A program made the position numbers and the translations under genes. Source: Cloeon dipterum (Eukaryota > Arthropoda > Insecta > Ephemeroptera > Baetidae). From it: a stretch of DNA of 64,000 nt. Location: positions 6,696,001-6,760,000 of the forward strand of contig NC_088788.1 in the NCBI RefSeq assembly GCF_949628265.1, read 5' to 3'. A model generated the notes under the pieces. The model was not told the origin of the DNA. It did no database searches and saw nothing but the letters and a program-made list of their open reading frames with translations. This document shows, in pieces, positions 137 through 48,957 of this stretch (its first letter is position 1; the number at the start of each line of letters is the position of its first letter).

Positions 137-1278
137 CACTCTGAGTTTTCTGCGATGAACTTTTGCGATTTTCACTGGTTAAAGATTCTGGTTTCCGACC
201 CGAGGAAAGTGTTTTACCTAGTACATCAGATCTTCTTGTTTGATTACTCATTTCTGGACGAGGGGAAGAAGCAAGCAAACTCTCTAGCGACAAATCAACA
301 GAATCTAAAAAAAATAATTCTGCATTCAAATTCCTGCTTTCCAGCCGACAAAATAACCACAAAAACACCAAAATAAAGTATATGCGTCACTCAAAAATAA
401 CATTTTTAATATAACAACTAGGGCATAGTATCTTATTTAAAACATATTGCCACGTTGCGATTTTTCGAATCAGCCAACCCATTACAAACTTAAATGCAAC
501 CCCCATTATTTATTGCGACGTCATCACTGCTCAGGGGTTAGAAAAGAGCATAGTGATCAAGGGATTTGAAAATTTTACAGTCAATTTGGCCAGGATTTAG
601 TTTAAATATTTTTTGACATCTGACTAAAAAGTATTATTGGTTTATCGCTAATAGAACCAAACACTACTGGCCGTCCTTATTGAAGATTATTAATGACGTA
701 AACTTACTACCCTGAGTGCTTTGCGTAAAAAGTTTGCGATTTTCACTGGTGGAAGATTCCGGTTTCCGACCCGCGGCAAGTGTTTTATCTAGTACATCAG
801 ATCTTCTTGTTTGATTACTCATATCTGGACGAGGGGAAGAAGCAAGCAAACTCGGTAGCGACAAATCATCAGAAGCTAAAAAAAATAATTCTGCATTCAA
901 ATTCCTGCTTTCCAGCCGACAAAATAGCTACGAAAACACCAAAATAATGTATATGCGTCTCTCAAAAATAACATTTTTAATATAACAACTAGGGCATAGT
1001 ATCTTATTTAAAACATATTGCCACGTTGCGATTTTTCGAATCAGCCAACCCATTACAGACTTAAATGCAACTCCCATTATTTATTGCGACGTCATCACTG
1101 CTCAGGGGTTAGAAAAGAGCATAGTGATCAAGGGATTTGAAAATTTTACAGTAAATTTGGCTAGGATTTATTCCAAATATTTTTTGACATCTGACTAACA
1201 AGTAATATTGGTTTATCGCTAAAAGAACCAAAAACTACTGGCCGTCCTTATTGAATATTTTTAATGACTTAAACCTAC
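137..1278 (-). repeat. Tandem duplication of a 571-bp intron-plus-exon unit in gene A
   Basis: Exon ends at 137, 708 and 1279 are each exactly 571 bases apart, and the acceptors at 304 and 875 share the same spacing. Intron sequence is also shared, for example the block around atataacaactagggcata at about 410 and again at about 980. The 168-bp exons differ by scattered substitutions but keep both splice sites and the reading frame. The minisatellite exon is the third member of the series, sharing the donor-side sequence. Confidence 0.9.
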
Positions 1279-3612
1279 CTCTCTGAGAGCTTTGACTCGA
1301 AATGTATGATGAGAGGGTGCGATTCTCACTCTCTGGAGACTCTGGTCCCAAGGGGTGTACTATTATTTCTGTCAAACTCACTGACACTTCATCAGAATTC
1401 GCTGACTCTGTTCCATCAGAATTGGCTGACTCTGTTCCATCAGAATTCGCTGACTCTGTTCCGTCAGAATTCGCTGACTCTGTTCCATCAGAATTCGCTG
1501 ACTCTATTCCATCAGAATTCGCTGACTCTGTTCCGTCAGAATTCGCTGACTCTGTTTCATCAGAATTCGCTGACTCTGTTCCGTCAGAATTCGCTGACTC
1601 TGTTCCGTCAGAATTCGCTGACTCTGTTCCATCAGAATTCGCTGACTCTGTTCCGTCAGAATTCGCTGACTCTGTTCCGTCAGAATTCGCTGACTCTGTT
1701 CCGTCAGAATTCGCTGACTCTGTTTCATCAGAATTCGCTGACTCTGTTCCGTCAGAATTCGCTGACTCTGTTCCGTCAGAATTCGCTGACTCTGTTCCGT
1801 CAGAATTCGCTGACTCTGTTTCATCAGAATTCGCTGACTCTGTTCCATCAGAATTCGCTGACTCTGTTCCGTCAGAATTCGCTGACTCTGTTCCGTCAGA
1901 ATTCGCTGACTCTGTTCCATCAGAATTCGCTGACTCTGTTCCGTCAGAATTCGCTGACTCTGTTTCATCAGAATTCGCTGACTCTGTTCCGTCAGAATTC
2001 GCTGACTCTGTTCCGTCAGAATTCGCTGACTCTGTTCCATCAGAATTCGCTGACTCTGTTCCATCAGAATTCGCTGACTCTGTTCCGTCAGAATTCGCTG
2101 ACTCTGTTCCATCAGAATTCGCTGACTCTGTTCCGTCAGAATTCGCTGACTCTGTTTCATCAGAATTCGCTGACTCTGTTCCGTCAGAATTCGCTGACTC
2201 TGTTCCGTCAGAATTCGCTGACTCTGTTCCATCAGAATTCGCTGACTCTGTTCCGTCAGAATTCGCTGACTCTGTTTCATCAGAATTCGCTGACTCTGTT
2301 CCGTCAGAATTCGCTGACTCTGTTCCGTCAGAATTCGCTGACTCTGTTCCGTCAGAATTCGCTGACTCTGTTCCATCAGAATTCGCTGACTCTGTTCCGT
2401 CAGAATTCGCTGACTCTGTTTCATCAGAATTCGCTGACTCTGTTCCGTCAGAATTCGCTGACTCTGTTCCGTCAGAATTCGCTGACTCTGTTCCGTCAGA
2501 ATTCGCTGACTCTGTTCCGTCAGAATTCGCTGACTCTATTCCATCAGAATTCGCTGACTCTGTTCCGTCAGAATTCGCTGACTCTGTTCCGTCAGAATTC
2601 GCTGACTCTGTTTCATCAGAATTCGCTGACTCTGTTCTGTCAGAATCGAAATCTATACTGTCATCTATATTTAGGGAAGCGACCGACATAACATTGGAAC
2701 CTGTAAAAAAATATTAAAGGTACTATTGAAATTAAAATTCTAGCTTTCCATCCAGCTATAAAATAACATTTGAGACATTCACAAATATATTACGTAAAAT
2801 AGATTGCCAATTGCTTATTTTTTTAATCAGCTAACACGCATTATACAGACCTGCCTCACTGAGTGAATCATCAGATTTCATTGATCTTGTGTCCACATTA
2901 TCGTTTTCCACATTGCTCCCAAAGTCAGGAGAAGGAGCAGGCGCATATGGAAGCGAGTTATTATTATCAGGAGCTGTAAAAAAGCATAATATGCACTGTT
3001 ACCACATTACATTCAAGCATTCTCCTTCCAGTTTTAAAATAGATTTTGCGTCATTTCACAAATATACAGATTGCCATTGCTTTTTATAATCGGCTTGCAC
3101 GCATTTTTCAGGCCCATATTTATATTGTGACATCGTCACTGCTTTGGGCATGGGTGGGGGGGGGGGGGTAGGAGCCATATCATTCATATACACGGATTTG
3201 ATCATTTTTAAGTTATTGGGATTGGGATGCCTCTCGAAACTTTATTTTTTTATTCAGACATCTGACAAATAAACAGTTATGATTAAAAATAATTTTGGTT
3301 TCACTAGAGAATTCTAATTTTTGTTATCAAATTTATTTTCTGGTTTCCAAATTAACTGGCTGTCTGTTCTGAAGATTTTCATGCTTTAAACTTACCGCCA
3401 TGTACACGATCCCTCGGTAAAGACAATGAACGGTAGGGATTCTCACTGGTGGACGATTCTGGTCTCTTGCCACAGGAATTTCTTCTTACCCCTTTGGTTT
3501 TATCAATTGGCGGCGATTTTGGTTTTTCAGCATCGTTTTTCGCTTTGCTCTCATCACTACATTGGCCATGTTCGGGGAATGCGTGCTCTTTCTTTCCAGA
3601 TTTATCAGCCAT
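137..3612 (-). CDS. Gene A: partial low-complexity protein with phase-1 exons and a minisatellite exon (5' end; continues beyond base 1)
   Basis: Not a family I recognise. Coding exons read on the minus strand are 3612-3396, 2973-2851, 2700-1279, 875-708 and 304-137. The ATG at 3612 lies four bases after an acceptor (tttgtttctcag ending at 3617), so a non-coding 5' exon lies upstream. Every internal exon begins after a T-rich AG and ends at a GT donor in phase 1, and each is a multiple of three long (123, 1422, 168, 168), so exons can be gained or skipped without frame change. The first exon encodes a hydrophilic, Lys/Glu/Ser-rich N-terminus (MADKSGKKEHAFPEHG). The third holds 52 copies of an eight-residue ESANSDGT unit. 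The last two are near-identical 56-codon Ser-rich modules containing RKPES and TSENRK. No catalytic motif or membrane segment is visible and the protein looks disordered. Because gene B shares exon 1 and ends in a zinc-binding region, gene A may do so beyond the window; that is inference. Confidence 0.72.
1393..2640 (-). repeat. 24-bp coding minisatellite, 52 units
   Basis: The EcoRI-type hexamer gaattc recurs every 24 bases from 1395 to 2619, giving 52 units in exact register with no insertion or deletion. One unit (at 1419) has attggc in place of attcgc. On the coding minus strand each unit reads ESANSDGT or ESANSDET. Substitutions cluster at a few positions (ccg, cca or tca before cagaattc), making three unit types. 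Because the unit is 24 bp and lacks stops in most frames, four reading frames stay open across it; only the minus frame joined to flanking exons is supported as coding. Confidence 0.95.
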
Positions 3613-5418: not shown

Positions 5419-6381
5419 TTAATTCACTTGTCCACGACACGATATTTTTGGACGCATTTTGAAAGTGAAAAGGTCACAATTGTTGCAGCATTCCTGCAGA
5501 TCCGTTTTAGCAATGTTTATAGGGCACAGAGTAAAAACTCCTTTGAGACGAAGAAAGGTCATATATGAGCACCTCAAATGAAATTGTTCATAATGGTTAA
5601 ATATTCCATCTTCGCTTTCGAAAGACGTGAAATACATTTGACACATCAAACAATAAAAATTGCCTGTTCCCTTGTTAAATGACGGATGCTGGAGGCATTC
5701 GTGGGATTCTTTTCTGCCCTTGTAAACAAACTTCTCACAAACACCGCAGTTATATAGCTCCGAATCTAAATTTGTTCCTTTTAGGGCCACTATGACATTT
5801 TTTTTATCACTGGCTAAATTAATGTCAACTTTATAGCTGTGCAAATTTGATGTGTAATGCTCCAAGATGGCATCACTAAAAATCTCACACATCACACAAT
5901 AGCCTATTATGTCGCGTTTTATCTCACCGTTGTTGGCATCATCTATATGTTGAGATTGGGGTGCAAGTGGAGCAAGTGGGACTCTCTGACCTACGGGTTC
6001 CTGTACATTTCCGTTCATTGAGGCTGCACAGGCACCAGTTGTTTCAGGATTTAAATTGCCTACTGCGACTTGCATGTTTGGATGTGGATATCCAGTGGGT
6101 GTTGAGATAATTGTCCGATCTCCGCAATTCTGAGGTCGTGGAACCGTCGGGGATGAAGGAACTCCACCAATAGGAGAATCAGACTTCCTTGGGGTAGCAG
6201 GCCTAGATGCTATTGGATCTCCAACGGTTGGCTGGACTGTTCCCTCCTTTTGGTAATGCTGAGGTCGTCGACCCATTGGCGGTGATTTTGGTTTTTCAAC
6301 ATCGTTTTCCGCTTTGCTCTCATCACTACATTGGCCATGTTCGGGGGACGGTTGTTCTTTCTCTCCAGTATTATCAGGCAT
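5419..6381 (-). CDS. Gene B: 320-residue protein with C-terminal Cys/His zinc-binding region
   Basis: One uninterrupted coding exon; the ATG at 6381 follows an acceptor (tttgtttctcag), so only the 5' UTR is spliced. Residues 1-35 match gene A's first exon (EHGQCSDESKA, EKPKSPP). Residues 36-150 are Pro/Ser/Thr-rich and probably disordered. Residues 160-320 hold Cys/His clusters: C162-x2-C165 with H175/H181; C212-x2-C215 with H227 and C229; C244-x2-C247 with H263/H268; and a final cluster C298/C299, C302 and C315 with the pattern CC-x2-C-x4-F-x3-RPK. The order and spacing match gene C, so this is a paralogous domain. The second and fourth clusters do not fit the classical C2H2 pattern. Zinc binding is inferred; DNA, RNA or protein as partner cannot be decided. 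Gene A lies downstream on the same strand. Confidence 0.8.
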   Translation of the reverse strand: MPDNTGEKEQPSPEHGQCSDESKAENDVEKPKSPPMGRRPQHYQKEGTVQPTVGDPIASRPATPRKSDSPIGGVPSSPTVPRPQNCGDRTIISTPTGYPHPNMQVAVGNLNPETTGACAASMNGNVQEPVGQRVPLAPLAPQSQHIDDANNGEIKRDIIGYCVMCEIFSDAILEHYTSNLHSYKVDINLASDKKNVIVALKGTNLDSELYNCGVCEKFVYKGRKESHECLQHPSFNKGTGNFYCLMCQMYFTSFESEDGIFNHYEQFHLRCSYMTFLRLKGVFTLCPINIAKTDLQECCNNCDLFTFKMRPKISCRGQVN

Positions 6382-8695: not shown

Positions 8696-8942
8696 CTCTT
8701 TTTATCCCTGTCCGAGAACCGGAGGACCGGGAAGGGCGCGCACTGCACTAGCACGAATGCTGAAACCCGGGTGCCAATAACACCGCGAACGGATAACATG
8801 GGCGCACAGGGCCGCACAGGGACCCAGCCCACTCAAGGGCCACTTGCCTCCGCACCGAGGACTGCATTGAAACGCTAGACATTCGTCCTGTGAAGCCAAC
8901 TCACGCATGCTGGAAAGGGTCAAAGCAGCAAGTAGCGAGTTA
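8696..8942 (-). repeat. Dispersed GC-rich element, truncated inverted copy
   Basis: This is the reverse complement of about 47580-47829 and of 48700-48957, with only scattered differences. The shared 3' end is agggataaaaagagcaaaa (next to 8696). The other end stops abruptly near 8942 where the other copies continue for about 150 more bases. A common 3' end with 5' truncation fits retrotransposition, but no target-site duplication or polymerase is seen. Confidence 0.8.
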
Positions 8943-9213
8943 TTTGACTTCTTAATAGAAGTTTTATTATTTCTACCTTTCTTTTCTCTCAAACCAGAAA
9001 TATCGAATTAATATTTGCTATAAAATATGTAAAATATTATTGTTTTTGCATCATATATTTTCCTCTTGTACGTGTTTTACAAAAATTATTCATTCAATTC
9101 GAGTGTAATTTCAAACCAAAAATATGTTTTGTACAAATTTTAATAATATATTTTGTGGGGGTTATCAAAATATTCACGGAAGTAATACGTAATCATGTGG
9201 CACGGGAAAAACG

Positions 9214-15123: not shown

Positions 15124-18051
15124 TTATTTTCTACGTGATTCACCCGGCGGGCCTCTTTCAGACTTCTGTTTTCTCGCTGAAGGTAGAGCTGAAGCCTCGC
15201 TTTTAGCTACATAACAAAAATATTAATAGAGTTTAGTTTAAAATCGTCTAAGGAGTGAATTATAATTCATACTAATTGATATTCGATGAAAATGTCCAAC
15301 AAAAAATATTAATAGCGTCATAGCCGGGTTTAAGAAGAATGATTTGATTGCTATCACGATCGTCTTAACGTCATGAACAAATAGAAACAACTAATTTATT
15401 TAAAAATTGTATATTTCTGCCAAACTTTTCTATTAGTTGGAAGAAATAACTGTTGACCGATAAATAATATATTTTTAAAAGTAACTAGCAGTGAAGCATT
15501 CACATTTAAGGCGGAAAAATGATCGCGGGAAGAAACTAAAATACAGTGTAAAAAATAATTAAATTACTTAATATACCTGTTAGACGAGGAATAGACAGGT
15601 CTATCGAAGAATTGGGAGAAGGAAAATGGCTGTCAAGCGAGTGACTACGAATCTGCCGACCTACGGGGTATTGAGGTCTACGGGGAGGAGTAGAGGAACC
15701 TTCTTCATCTGAGTTGCGAAAATTTTGTTGACCTTGTGGAGCTACAGGCGGTTCTTCTGCTGCGTCCTTTCCAGAAGAGCAGCTTTCCTCTGCTAAAATA
15801 TTGATATTTTGAAATAAAAACTATATCTTTGGTTTTTTGTCATCTGGTCAAAATAAACCACGCCAAACGGATAACATAGAGTGCCCGCAGAAGAGCATGG
15901 ACCCACTCATGGCCATATTTTCGCCGAGTTCTTTGATCGAAATTTGTCCCTAAAGCCAAGTAAAGCTACGAAAATCAGTAAAGGGTGACTCATCACCCAG
16001 CGCGCCTTCCAGCCCGTTAAATTACTTAAAAGCCATTTATATAATGTTATTTAACTATCCACCATCGTTGCCATTGGGCAGCCAGTGATCAATCCCTGAA
16101 ATGCTGAATTATTTCAATTTCCTTGGCACTGGTGGGAATGCCTTTTAAAATTATGCAATCCAACCGACTAACTTAAAAAGTGATAAGAATCATACTGTAT
16201 CAGACATACTTTTCATTTGTTCTTCATCTGCATTGGGAAATGACGAATCTTCTTGCTCCATCTCATTATTTTGATCGGATTGTTCAGGTACTTCAGGTTC
16301 CTGGTCTTGCATGTTCCACAATTCAATTCGCGATTCTGCAAGAGAATATTCAAATCCATTAAAAGCTGATTTTATAATAAATAAATAAATTAAATTACGC
16401 CAAGTATCTGCGTTTTCAACATCGCTCTCAATCCTGATGCCAATCGAGACAGCCTGTCCTTGAATGGGTCGCCCTCTTTTACGAGGAATAGACAGGTCTA
16501 ACGAAGAAAGGGGCGAAGGAATAGGGCTGTCGAGGGTGTTCCTGTGAATCGGCTGACCAACGAGGTATCGAGGTGTAAGGGGAGGACTAAATAAGTAACT
16601 TTCTAAAGAGTTGCGACGGCGAGTTTGCTGAGCGAGTGGAACTACTGGTTCTTCTGCTGCGTCATTTTCAGGACAGCAGCTGCCACCTGCTGAAATTTCG
16701 ATTGTATTAATTAAAAACTATGTCTTTGGTTTTTTCTCATCTGGTCAAAATAAACCACGCCAAACAGATAACATGAAGGGGCCGCAGAGGAGCTTTGGCC
16801 CAGCGGGGGCCAGATTTGCGGTAAAATTGGTTCCCACTGCGCAGATCCGAGATCCAAGATGGCGTCTGAATGTGGGAAACAAAAATCTCTCTTTGAATTC
16901 CCGTACGTGTGTCAGGAGATTGTTTTAACGATCCAAAAGACACAATTAGTACAAGTAATGCATAATATTGACCAAAACTTGCTTCTTTTCGCGCACTTTC
17001 AAGTAGTGACCGTTTTTTTCGCGCCATACTCCAACGGACACCATATCTGGGCGTCGCACTAATCTGGACCCCGCTGCTTGGGCCATATTTTCGCCTCCCC
17101 GCACCGAGTTCTCAGACTGAAATACCACATAAATTCATCCCTAAAGCCACTATAAACGCCCGGAGCGCGTTAAATTACTTAAAAGCCATTTATTTCAAAT
17201 TATCTAACTAACCACCATCGTTGCTATTGGGCAGCTAGTAATAGATCCCTGAAACGCTGAATTGTCTTCAATTGCCTTGACACTGCTTATCACACTTTTA
17301 ACATTATTCAATCCAACCAACAAGCCGAAATAAAAAAAAAATTAAATCATGTATACTCTACCTGACATTCTTTTCTTTTGTTCTTCTTCGCTGGGAAATA
17401 CCGAACCATCCTCTTCCATCTTATAATCTTGATCGGATTGTTCAGATACTTCAGATTCCTGGCCTAACGAAGAAAGGGGCGAAGGTAAAGGGCTGTCGAG
17501 GGTGTTTCGGCGAATCGGCTGACCTACGAGGTATCGTGGTGTACGGGGAGGGGTAAATGATCTCTCACTAGAGACGCGACGCGGTCGCTGGCCAGGTGGA
17601 GCCCCTTTTCCTGGCTGAGATGGTTCCATGGCTGCGTCATTTTCAGATGAGCCCAAAGAGGATATTTTGGCAGACTGGCCGTGACAACCACTGGAATTTT
17701 GAGAAGATTTTGCAGACTCCTGGTCTTCCATGGCTTGATTTTCTGTTCAGGATGTTTTCAAAAATTAAAACCGCAAGGAAAAATCCTAAAAATAATACCC
17801 TGTTCAGAATCAGCATCTCTGCTCTGGCTTCTCGAGCTAATAGCATCATCTGTATCTATTGTAGGCACCGAGCTGAAACGGTTAAATAAATTCAGAGAAT
17901 ATAACGAATGTGAAAATTCAAATATATCAATATTTTTACGATTTTTATTCGCATTGTTTTACCTGGACGAACTCTCATAAGAAATGCATTTTGGATTGTT
18001 GCAAGGCTCATTTTTGTCAAGGTCACGTCCACATTTTGAGCACTTTTCCAT
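15124..18051 (-). CDS. Gene D: 419-residue protein, N-terminal Cys4 knuckle and duplicated Ser/Pro/acidic modules
   Basis: Seven exons: 18051-17963, 17872-17799, 17742-17362, 16689-16399, 16335-16210, 15792-15577 and 15206-15124. All junctions are phase-consistent and total 1260 bases with a terminal TAA. Residues 4-22 have C-x2-C-x9-C-x4-C (CSKCGRDLDKNEPCNNPKC), a zinc-ribbon-like knuckle. The rest is repeated modules: a TPPRTPRYLVGQPIRRN-like segment followed by LDSPLPSPLSSLD occurs three times (exons 3, 4 and 6), and an acidic PEVPEQSDQ-like block twice (exons 3 and 5). Exon 4 also carries an AT-hook-like RKRGRP. The C-terminus is basic (SARKQK, SRRK), suggesting nuclear location. The stop codon lies inside AATAAA. 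The ATG is preceded in frame by TGA, so translation starts there in this frame. Function is unknown; DNA or chromatin contact is only suggested by the motifs. Confidence 0.78.
15840..17340. repeat. Duplicated intron segments within gene D
   Basis: The block beginning ctggtcaaaataaaccacgc occurs at about 15848 and 16741. The block running from the ttttcgccgagttc region through aaattacttaaaagccattt to ccaccatcgttg occurs at about 15920-16160 and again at about 17090-17300. Together with the matching exons 3-4 and 5-6 this shows that gene D grew by tandem duplication of exon-intron units. The piece at about 16790-17060 is extra sequence and weakly resembles 36480-36550. Confidence 0.75.
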
Positions 18052-19410: not shown

Positions 19411-20750
19411 TTAGATATGGTTTTTATGCAACGATGAGAGGAAATTTCTCGAGAAATAACCAAATCTTTTCCTCTTGGAAGACCCCTGCTTCCGTTCAGT
19501 TGCAAAATTGGCCCGGTTCTTGTTTTTGCACTTCAGAGCTGATTTTTGGATTTTATTGCACATCAGCTTGGGGCGATTCTTGAACGAGAACACCTGGCAG
19601 GAATGGCAGCAGTATTCAAGATCTTCAAATTCGTCGGCGAATATCGGCAGAAGGGTCTTCACCTTGCAAATCGTTTTGATCGTGTAGCACTCGGTGTTGT
19701 TCTTGTGCGCGCTTCTAAAGTGCGATTCGATATCGAGAAAGCGAGACTGGCACATGACGCAGCGTTCATCCCCCTTCGGTTTTGCCGGTCTATCCGGGTC
19801 CTTGGCAGGAAGGATGCATCCGTGGCTCACGCTGCCTTTGTAAAATACATTTTTGCAAGAATTGCAACGCTTCAGTTCTTCAAGGCTTGCTCCATCAGGC
19901 TTGATTATGCGCACCCCGTCCAACGAGTCCGGCACGTAAAATTTATCCTTGTGCACTTTTTCCTTCAAGTGCACCGTGACGTCATCACACTTCGTTTCAC
20001 ACATCACGCAAAAACCGGATAGATTTTTCTTTACGAATGGATAGACATTTGGCTTGGGCTGTCGAGTACCATTGCCTTTACCTGTGAAGATTGAAATTGT
20101 ATTTTAATGAATTTCTGTAATTTAAACGGCTATACCTTTGATTTTTTTAGTCTTTGATAGTGACAGAGAAGCGTCTGGCATCTTGGGCGGCGAGATGTTG
20201 ATGCTGGAATGCTTCTCTGGCAATAAGATCTCTGGAGAAGCCGTTGACGATCTTTTGGTTTTATTTTCTTCAATTTTTACTTCTGGCTCGGAGTCACTAT
20301 TGGCTGAAATAATAAAAAAATCGTTCTTAATTACTTGTTTTATTAAAAGTAAAATGTATTTTGCGACATTTTACATTCTGCATTTTTTATTTCGGGAAAA
20401 CACCAAAAATCTCTACTAAAATTTCCTGCACTTCTGAATTAAGATTGATTTAATAAAAATTCAAAATTATTACTAATTAAATGTTGTATCCTTGCAAACT
20501 TACCAGATGATTCCTGAGATTCAGCATTTTGAGATGGATTTTCACCATCTGAATCTTCTTGCGGTTGAACTTGAATAACAAGCTTCGCCTCGTCATTGTG
20601 TTGGTCCGACCTCACCTCATTCTCTGCAGCGTTTTGTTGCCTTTAAAAAATTAAAGAAAATTATGAAATTTCTAAATGCATAAAAAAATTTAAAATTTAC
20701 CTTTTGTCACGATGAGGGGAGGCATCCAGAGGGACAAGGTCCTGCGGCAT
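19411..20750 (-). CDS. Gene C: 341-residue paralogue of gene B with Cys/His zinc-binding region
   Basis: Exons 20750-20701, 20640-20504, 20303-20136 and 20081-19411 total 1026 bases in consistent phase. Residues 1-118 are acidic and Ser-rich (VQPQEDSDGENPSQN; KHSSINISPPK). Exon 3 is 168 bases, the same length and phase as the gene A modules. Residues about 142-300 carry the gene B domain: FCVMCE with later His; RCNSCKNVFYKGSVSHGC; RCVMCQSRFLDIESHFRSAH, close to a classical C2H2 finger; and CCHSCQVFSFKNRPKLMC. The C-terminal tail is Lys/Arg-rich (KQGSSKRKRFG), a likely nuclear signal. The ATG at 20750 is the first in the exon. The family seems to be a C-terminal zinc module joined to interchangeable disordered N-terminal exons. 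Molecular target unknown. Confidence 0.85.
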
Positions 20751-47426: not shown

Positions 47427-47829
47427 CATTGTTAAGGCACTCTCAGGAGTGTCAAAGCAATGAGAGGTATTTGAGCAGTTCGGAGATCTAATACTGGCTA
47501 CCCAATGTCAGAGATGGCAAAAAGTGGTTAGTTTAGTGACTCGAATTGCTCAAATTGCTCAACGGGCTGGGAGGCGCACCGGCGCCGACTCGCTACTTGC
47601 TGCTTTGCACCTTTCCAGCATGCGTGATTTGGCTTCACGGGACGAATGTCTAGCGTTTCAATGCAGTCCTCGGTGCGGAGGCAAGTGGCCCTTGAGTGGG
47701 CTGGGTCCCTGTGCGGCCTGGTGCGCCCATCTTATCCGTTCGCGGTGTTATTGGGACCCGGGTTTCAGCATTCGTGCTAGTGCAGTGCGCGCCCTTCCCG
47801 GTCCTCCGGTCCTCGGACAGGGATAAAAA
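47427..47829 (+). repeat. Dispersed element, copy 2
   Basis: Aligns with 48550-48957 over its whole length, and its last ~250 bases with the complement of 8696-8942. Begins near gctcgcattg and ends gacagggataaaaagagcaa. It keeps a ~100-codon open frame (QIAQRAGRRTGADSLLA) that the third copy shares only up to DECLAF, where a base change shifts the frame. No known transposon protein is recognised. Confidence 0.85.
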
Positions 47830-48310: not shown

Positions 48311-48549
48311 AAGTGTGCCAGTGATCTTTTGCAAACAAGACACTTCTCCCATTATTGCCGAACTAGGCGAACGAAGAACGTATTCACAAACACTCTACCT
48401 TCAATAAAATAGAACTAAAAGACGAGTCAAGTATAGGAACAACCCACATATATTAAAATCCCTTGCTCCTGCTTGATAATTCACAACGAAATTGTTTCAA
48501 TCAAATTTCCGTGGACATCACCAAAAGAATTAACAAAAATAACCAGCCC

Positions 48550-48957
48550 GTTGGCTCGCATTGCTAATGCATTCTCTGGAGTGTCAAAGCAATGGGAGGT
48601 ATTTGAGCAGTTCGGAGATCTAATACTGGCTACCCCATGTAAGAGATGGCAAAAAGTGGTTAGTTTAGTGACTCGAAATGCTCAAATTGCTCAACGGGCT
48701 GGGAGGCGCACCGGCGCCGACTCGCTACTTGCTGGTTTGCACCTTTCCAGCATGCGTGATTTGGCTTCACGGGACGAATGTCTAGCGTTTAAAGAAAAGT
48801 CCTCGGTGCGGAGGCAAGTGGCCCTTGAGTGGGCTGGGTCCCTGTGCGGCCTGGTGCGCCCATCTTATCCGTTCGCGGTGTTATTGGGACCCTGGTTTCA
48901 GCATTCGTGCTAGTGCAGTGCACGCCCTTCCCGGTCCAAGAGGACAGGGATAAAAAG
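48550..48957 (+). repeat. Dispersed element, copy 3
   Basis: Direct-orientation partner of 47427-47829, about 1.1 kb downstream, sharing gagatctaatactggctacc and the agggataaaaagagcaaaa end. The longest frame in this copy (KRWQKVVSLVTRNAQIAQRA and on) starts upstream and ends FQHSC. Differences from copy 2 include aaagaaaa in place of caatgcag at about 48790. Confidence 0.85.

Follow-up and report, generated by a model that had tools for sequence, protein, structure and literature searches.

Probable recent growth of a frame-keeping, predicted coding minisatellite in one exon of a tandemly duplicated, predicted zinc-finger-like family gene of Cloeon dipterum

The DNA analysed here, hereafter the window, is a stretch of 64,000 nucleotides from Cloeon dipterum (assembly GCF_949628265.1, contig NC_088788.1, abbreviated C3; window = C3:6696001-6760000). 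The genome assembly of 190 Mb consists of five large and five small contigs. A search for COX1 gave one weak match with stops, on contig C2, and showed no mitochondrial copy; a six-frame search, exon by exon, for the odorant-binding family that is expanded in C. dipterum gave one match, which carries no weight. At the beginning of the window lies gene A, a predicted gene of six exons, five of them in the window, with five GT-AG introns, phase-1 junctions throughout and an open frame of 1191 codons (Table 1). Its third exon contains an array of 24-bp units. A sequence-only reading had placed this array in a phase-1/phase-1 exon at 1279-2700, and the splice sites and the continuous frame showed these limits and phases to be exact. 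The same reading had stated that the flanks of the array splice into a frame coding for ESANSDGT repeats; indeed, this frame runs on into the neighbouring exons on the minus strand. The exon 4 stretch is present twice in tandem: exon 5 and the intron next to it repeat it over 618 bp with 92% identity.

Table 1. Positions of the predicted genes, their exons and the repeat array (window positions unless preceded by C3).
Feature	Position	Strand	Remarks
Gene A exon 1	3396..3612	minus	from ATG, ends in phase 1
Gene A exon 2	2851..2973	minus	123 bp, phase 1/1
Gene A exon 3	1279..2700	minus	1422 bp, phase 1/1, AG acceptor, GT donor, frame continuous with neighbours
Gene A exon 4	708..875	minus	168 bp, phase 1/1
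Gene A exon 5	137..304	minus	168 bp, phase 1/1
Gene A exon 6	C3:6695789-6694312	minus	starts about 0.2 kb past the window edge
24-bp array	1385..2632	minus	52 units in codon register; codes for (ESANSDGT)n, acidic, about -2 per unit
Gene B	C3:6690951 to 6686982	minus	tandem sister of A, six exons as in A, 8.7 kb from A
Paralogue C	5422..6381	minus	start of exon 1 fused to exon-6 tail; zinc-finger-like domain open

Several smaller features of gene A were also observed. By eye, an acceptor-like site lies directly upstream of the ATG of exon 1, and exons 1, 3, 4 and 5 have similar tails of the SESENR/TSENRK type. Exon 6 carries a second coding repeat of 129 bp (43 aa) in nine copies (C3:6694368-6695536). 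This repeat was found at four places in the 200-kb stretch examined: in A, in gene B (six copies in exon 6, C3:6687421-6688198), and at C3 positions 6643903 (4.4 copies) and 6650814 (2.1 copies), where it adjoins other matches to the gene family.

Tandem Repeats Finder (TRF) reported a period of 24, 52.3 copies, 95% matches and 0% indels at window positions 1392-2646, and a codon-by-codon count gave the 52 indel-free units that had been described before. Allowing up to three mismatches, the window contained 52 occurrences of the unit, compared with 0.00 in 100 shuffles, and a 28-bp pattern had 52 matches in the 190-Mb genome, every one in this array. At the same threshold, the genome held no further copy of the unit elsewhere and no match to the reversed 28-bp control pattern; the array was also absent from the viral contigs and prokaryote genomes searched. 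The tandem units thus fall within the 10-100 bp range of minisatellites and lie inside an exon predicted from the sequence and the sister gene, and their length keeps the frame through 52 units without an indel. Because 24 is divisible by three and the exon is in phase 1/1, the frame and splicing of gene A survive any change in array length.

Six unit sequences occur in the array: unit type A (30 copies, GAC GGA), type B (10 copies, GAT GGA), type C (8 copies, GAT GAA, coding for Glu), type D (2 copies, with Ile), and types E and F (1 copy each), which are the last two units, F being the end unit and also a Glu unit. The initial description had recognized three types, with Gly encoded by two codons, and Glu. 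The Glu units are real, but the number of sequences is six and the synonymous pair is Asp GAC/GAT, while Gly is always GGA. The order of the units had been thought to form a higher-order pattern. General measures gave weak results (LZ, p = 0.053; lag autocorrelation, p = 0.11; longest repeated string, p = 0.31), and a strong higher-order repeat was therefore rejected. The suggestive part is the spacing of the eight type-C units, which lie 4 to 8 units apart, at distances more regular than those in shuffled arrays (p = 0.004 for the variance and 0.010 for the smallest gap; with the end unit as ninth Glu unit, p = 0.003 and 0.002, respectively), by statistics that were picked after inspecting the data. 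This even spacing hints that the array was amplified in blocks of about six units.

It had also been pointed out that four reading frames are open across the array. This is correct for the consensus unit, which leaves four of the six frames open, but the two type-D units shut one of them. Moreover, when units of the same composition were shuffled, exactly four open frames were the commonest outcome (40.5%), and four or more were found in 76% of cases. Since this is the chance expectation, the open frames are uninformative and were discarded as evidence. The two plus-strand frames that are also open through the array could indicate a plus-strand or non-coding satellite that is open by accident. 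We regard this as very improbable, since open frames arise by chance, and the splice sites, the phases and the frame common to A and B are all on the minus strand.

The most informative comparison is provided by the sister gene B. A and B have the same six exons, five GT-AG introns, phase-1 joints throughout and one open frame each, but exon 3 of B has 195 bp against 1422 bp in A and contains a single imperfect 24-bp unit. The unit number therefore differs between homologues (52 against 1), which are paralogues and not alleles. When exon 3 of B was used as a genome query, it recovered A and B and one chance-level match on contig C1 (E = 0.68).

The introns of A and B differ at 97 of 1701 sites (5.7%). 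At this neutral rate, 35.6 substitutions would be expected in the 52 units since the A/B split. In fact, there are 3 private bases, each confined to a single unit and all located in the last two units, and the first 50 units alone comprise four unit types with no private base (34 expected). This deficit indicates that the present array was amplified or homogenized well after the split and lends support to the proposal of a recent expansion or homogenization, which can now be placed after the A/B duplication. Judged from the nucleotide differences, the array in its present form is much younger than that duplication, or has been homogenized since. B may conceivably have contracted from an older array; the present units of A are in any case not that old. 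Both end units of A and the unit of B carry GAT GAA, and the Glu type thus looks ancestral; it was probably followed by the Gly/GAT type, with Gly/GAC last.

Outside exon 3, the exons of A and B differ by 2.8-3.5%, less than the introns. The contrast is strongest for the three most conserved exons (exons 1, 2 and 4 pooled, 8/499; p = 6e-5) and holds when exon 5 and the start of exon 6 are added (21/751; p = 0.0015), with 4/150 at the start of exon 6 and 9/102 in exon 5, which is not conserved by itself. It weakens with a longer stretch of exon 6 (30/861; p = 0.016), and all exons including the exon-3 flanks equal the introns (57/1050; p = 0.80). In the pooled exons without exon 3, pN is 0.036 and pS is 0.033, so that purifying selection is visible only relative to the introns. 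The synonymous sites are low too, not significantly, and gene conversion could therefore contribute.

The reading frame has been maintained. All differences in exon length between A and B are multiples of three: 9 bp in exon 4, 66 bp in exon 5 (a gap split into 64 + 2 by the DNA aligner) and 1227 bp in exon 3. Among 11 intron indels, 3 are multiples of three and 8 are not. At the rate given by these 11 indels, the 1050 bp of unique exon sequence should have accumulated about 4.9 frame-breaking indels, and there is no net one (P = 0.007).

These data bear on the possibility that gene A is a recent pseudogene, in which a stop in exon 6 relaxed selection and allowed neutral growth of the minisatellite. 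The stop lies ahead of the zinc-finger-like domain, at a place where B and C stay open, and gene A may thus be losing its function; the frame of B in turn ends inside the zinc-finger region, and its copy of the domain has several stops. The near equality of pN and pS across the exons, the fast change of exon 3 and the agreement between the introns and all exons together would fit such decay. The open frames of the two genes (A, 1191 codons; B, 755) speak against it, as do the conservation of exons 1, 2 and 4 relative to the introns and the lack of a net frame-breaking indel; furthermore, the zinc-finger part past the stop of gene A has kept an open frame and shares 95% identity with C across 216 codons. 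On balance, we consider a pseudogene possible, though not the favoured explanation.

Exon 3 behaves differently from the other exons. Its flanks differ at 26 of 180 sites (14%), more than the introns overall (p = 5e-5) and more than the adjoining introns 2 and 3 (p = 3e-4), and most of the differences are amino-acid changes (24 at 147.7 nonsynonymous sites and 3 at 41.3 synonymous sites). The nonsynonymous rate exceeds the intron rate (p = 1.3e-5), and the synonymous rate is close to it. This could mean that exon 3 is under diversifying selection, for instance in a conflict or recognition role, and that the array is part of this change and not the result of neutral growth. However, within exon 3 pN (0.163) and pS (0.073) do not differ significantly (p = 0.21), the divergence of the adjacent intron 2 is also high (15/145, 10.3%), so that a locally raised mutation rate could explain part of the effect, and the test was chosen post hoc. 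Diversifying selection of this kind appears rather unlikely. Should it apply, the locus would lend itself to testing whether a common force drives repeat growth and substitution. A more far-reaching proposal, which we put forward as a speculation with low odds, is that exon 3 is a selection-driven accordion exon, by which copies in a zinc-finger-like gene cluster that have lost the domain are becoming long, charged, disordered proteins; array growth and amino-acid change would then both be faster than neutral, with exons 1, 2 and 4 nearly fixed.

The predicted product of gene A has 1191 aa and a net charge of -92 (B, +6), and the charge of the array by itself is -113. The composition of both products places them on the disordered side in a charge-hydropathy comparison. 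Exon 3 matched no Pfam family at E<=1. Its ten PDB matches at E up to 0.1 (designed propellers, a pyrrolo-quinoline quinone protein and circumsporozoite repeats) were rejected as matches between short-period repeats. The start of the protein, MADKSGKKEHAF, is charged and has no hydrophobic run, and no signal peptide was evident in it by eye.

The gene family is large. With most of the C protein as query, at least 154 matches were found in the genome at E<=10 (125 of 152 candidates scored). By hand count, at least 101 matches reached E<=0.001; about 80 of these extend into the zinc-finger part, and the remaining ones are exon-1 or 43-aa-repeat matches. Most of the matches listed are located at C3 5.3-6.7 Mb and C5 29-32 Mb. 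In 14 chosen members, C13, H23, C60, C63, C77, C92, C95, H111, H116, C146, C150 and C163 are invariant and C10, H29 and C147 nearly so. The family has ligands in the C2H2 arrangement (C-x2-C...H...H), which are missing from the predicted product of A owing to its stop. The two members in the window stay below every Pfam cut-off, the best model, zf-C2H2_12, scoring 15.8 bits against a cut-off of 27.3; across all 14 members scanned, the best E to any Pfam family was 0.0012, and NCBIfam gave no match for the 14 members. A profile search of the PDB returned 46 matches up to E = 10, all of them weak and for the most part to C2H2 fingers; the best was to an RNA-editing protein (E = 0.009). Structure prediction of the zinc-finger part of two window proteins was useless (mean pLDDT 31.6) and was set aside. 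In viral contigs, 54 pattern matches to the zinc-finger part were found, and none was confirmed as a relative.

A further member was observed nearby: the minus strand at window positions 15536-17746 and 19411-20103 contains it together with three adjacent exon-like frames that have a ‘RYLVGQPI’-type module in common. At the fusion joint of paralogue C, there is a short shared CCAAT.

Taking the evidence together, we consider it probable, at roughly three in four, that the array is a translated coding minisatellite specifying an acidic, disordered segment, and that it lies in exon 3 of a tandemly duplicated gene which evolves fast and belongs to an expanded zinc-finger-like family. According to this scenario, exon 3 originally contained about one 24-bp unit, like its counterpart in the sister gene B, and this unit was duplicated. 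The seed was perhaps an imperfect 24-bp-spaced repeat at the 5' edge of the exon (ATTCTGAC..AACA / ATTCTGAT..AACA), which may just as well be a degraded partial unit. The number of units may then have risen to 52 by slippage or unequal exchange, perhaps in part by blocks of about six. The product would be a strongly acidic, disordered spacer, possibly variable in length, in a protein that ends ahead of the zinc-finger-like domain.

Coding arrays of this kind have known counterparts. In mucin-type coding VNTRs, a uniform unit with a length that is a multiple of 3 bp is repeated in a variable number of copies within a single exon. The array of gene A is similar in having a uniform multiple-of-three unit in one exon, with the copy number compared between paralogues, but its unit is the acidic ESANSDGT and not a Ser/Thr/Pro mucin unit. 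Among clustered C2H2 zinc-finger genes, PRDM9 offers a further comparison. The family of gene A resembles clustered C2H2 families (PMC2443715) in being expanded and clustered and in its C-x2-C..H..H motifs; unlike in those families, the array sits in a disordered exon and not in the zinc fingers. The salivary glue (Sgs) genes of Drosophila contain short internal repeats that evolve rapidly in number and sequence, both between close species and within populations (PMC6352337). They share with gene A the fast-changing internal repeats, gene duplication and phase-1 junctions. However, Sgs proteins are secreted and have the phase-1 intron in the signal peptide (PMC6352337), whereas gene A belongs to a zinc-finger-like family and shows no such peptide by eye; the likeness noted here is one of behaviour.

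Recent growth of a coding minisatellite is a known kind of process, of which gene A is a clear and well-dated example. According to a study on human proteins, most of their repeats are ancient and seldom undergo rapid change (PMC3995336), which makes a dated recent case of some use. Such arrays are often known only in their expanded form. Here, the sister gene 8.7 kb away has a single unit within the same arrangement of exons and introns, so that neutral sequence provides a clock for the growth and the seed can be guessed. Among the matches listed in our literature search on coding minisatellites, insect intragenic repeats and protein tandem repeats, which covered titles and the beginnings of abstracts and is no proof of absence, there was no paper on gene A.

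Other repeats were noticed in the surroundings. A repeated stretch at window positions 8702-9007, 47464-47826 and 48437-48913 has open frames with near-identical translations and is likely a dispersed element. Outside the window, satellite arrays of about 327 bp are located at C3:6662045-6665378 (10 copies) and 6683063-6684933 (5.6 copies), and a 172-bp array is located at C3:6669308-6670640.
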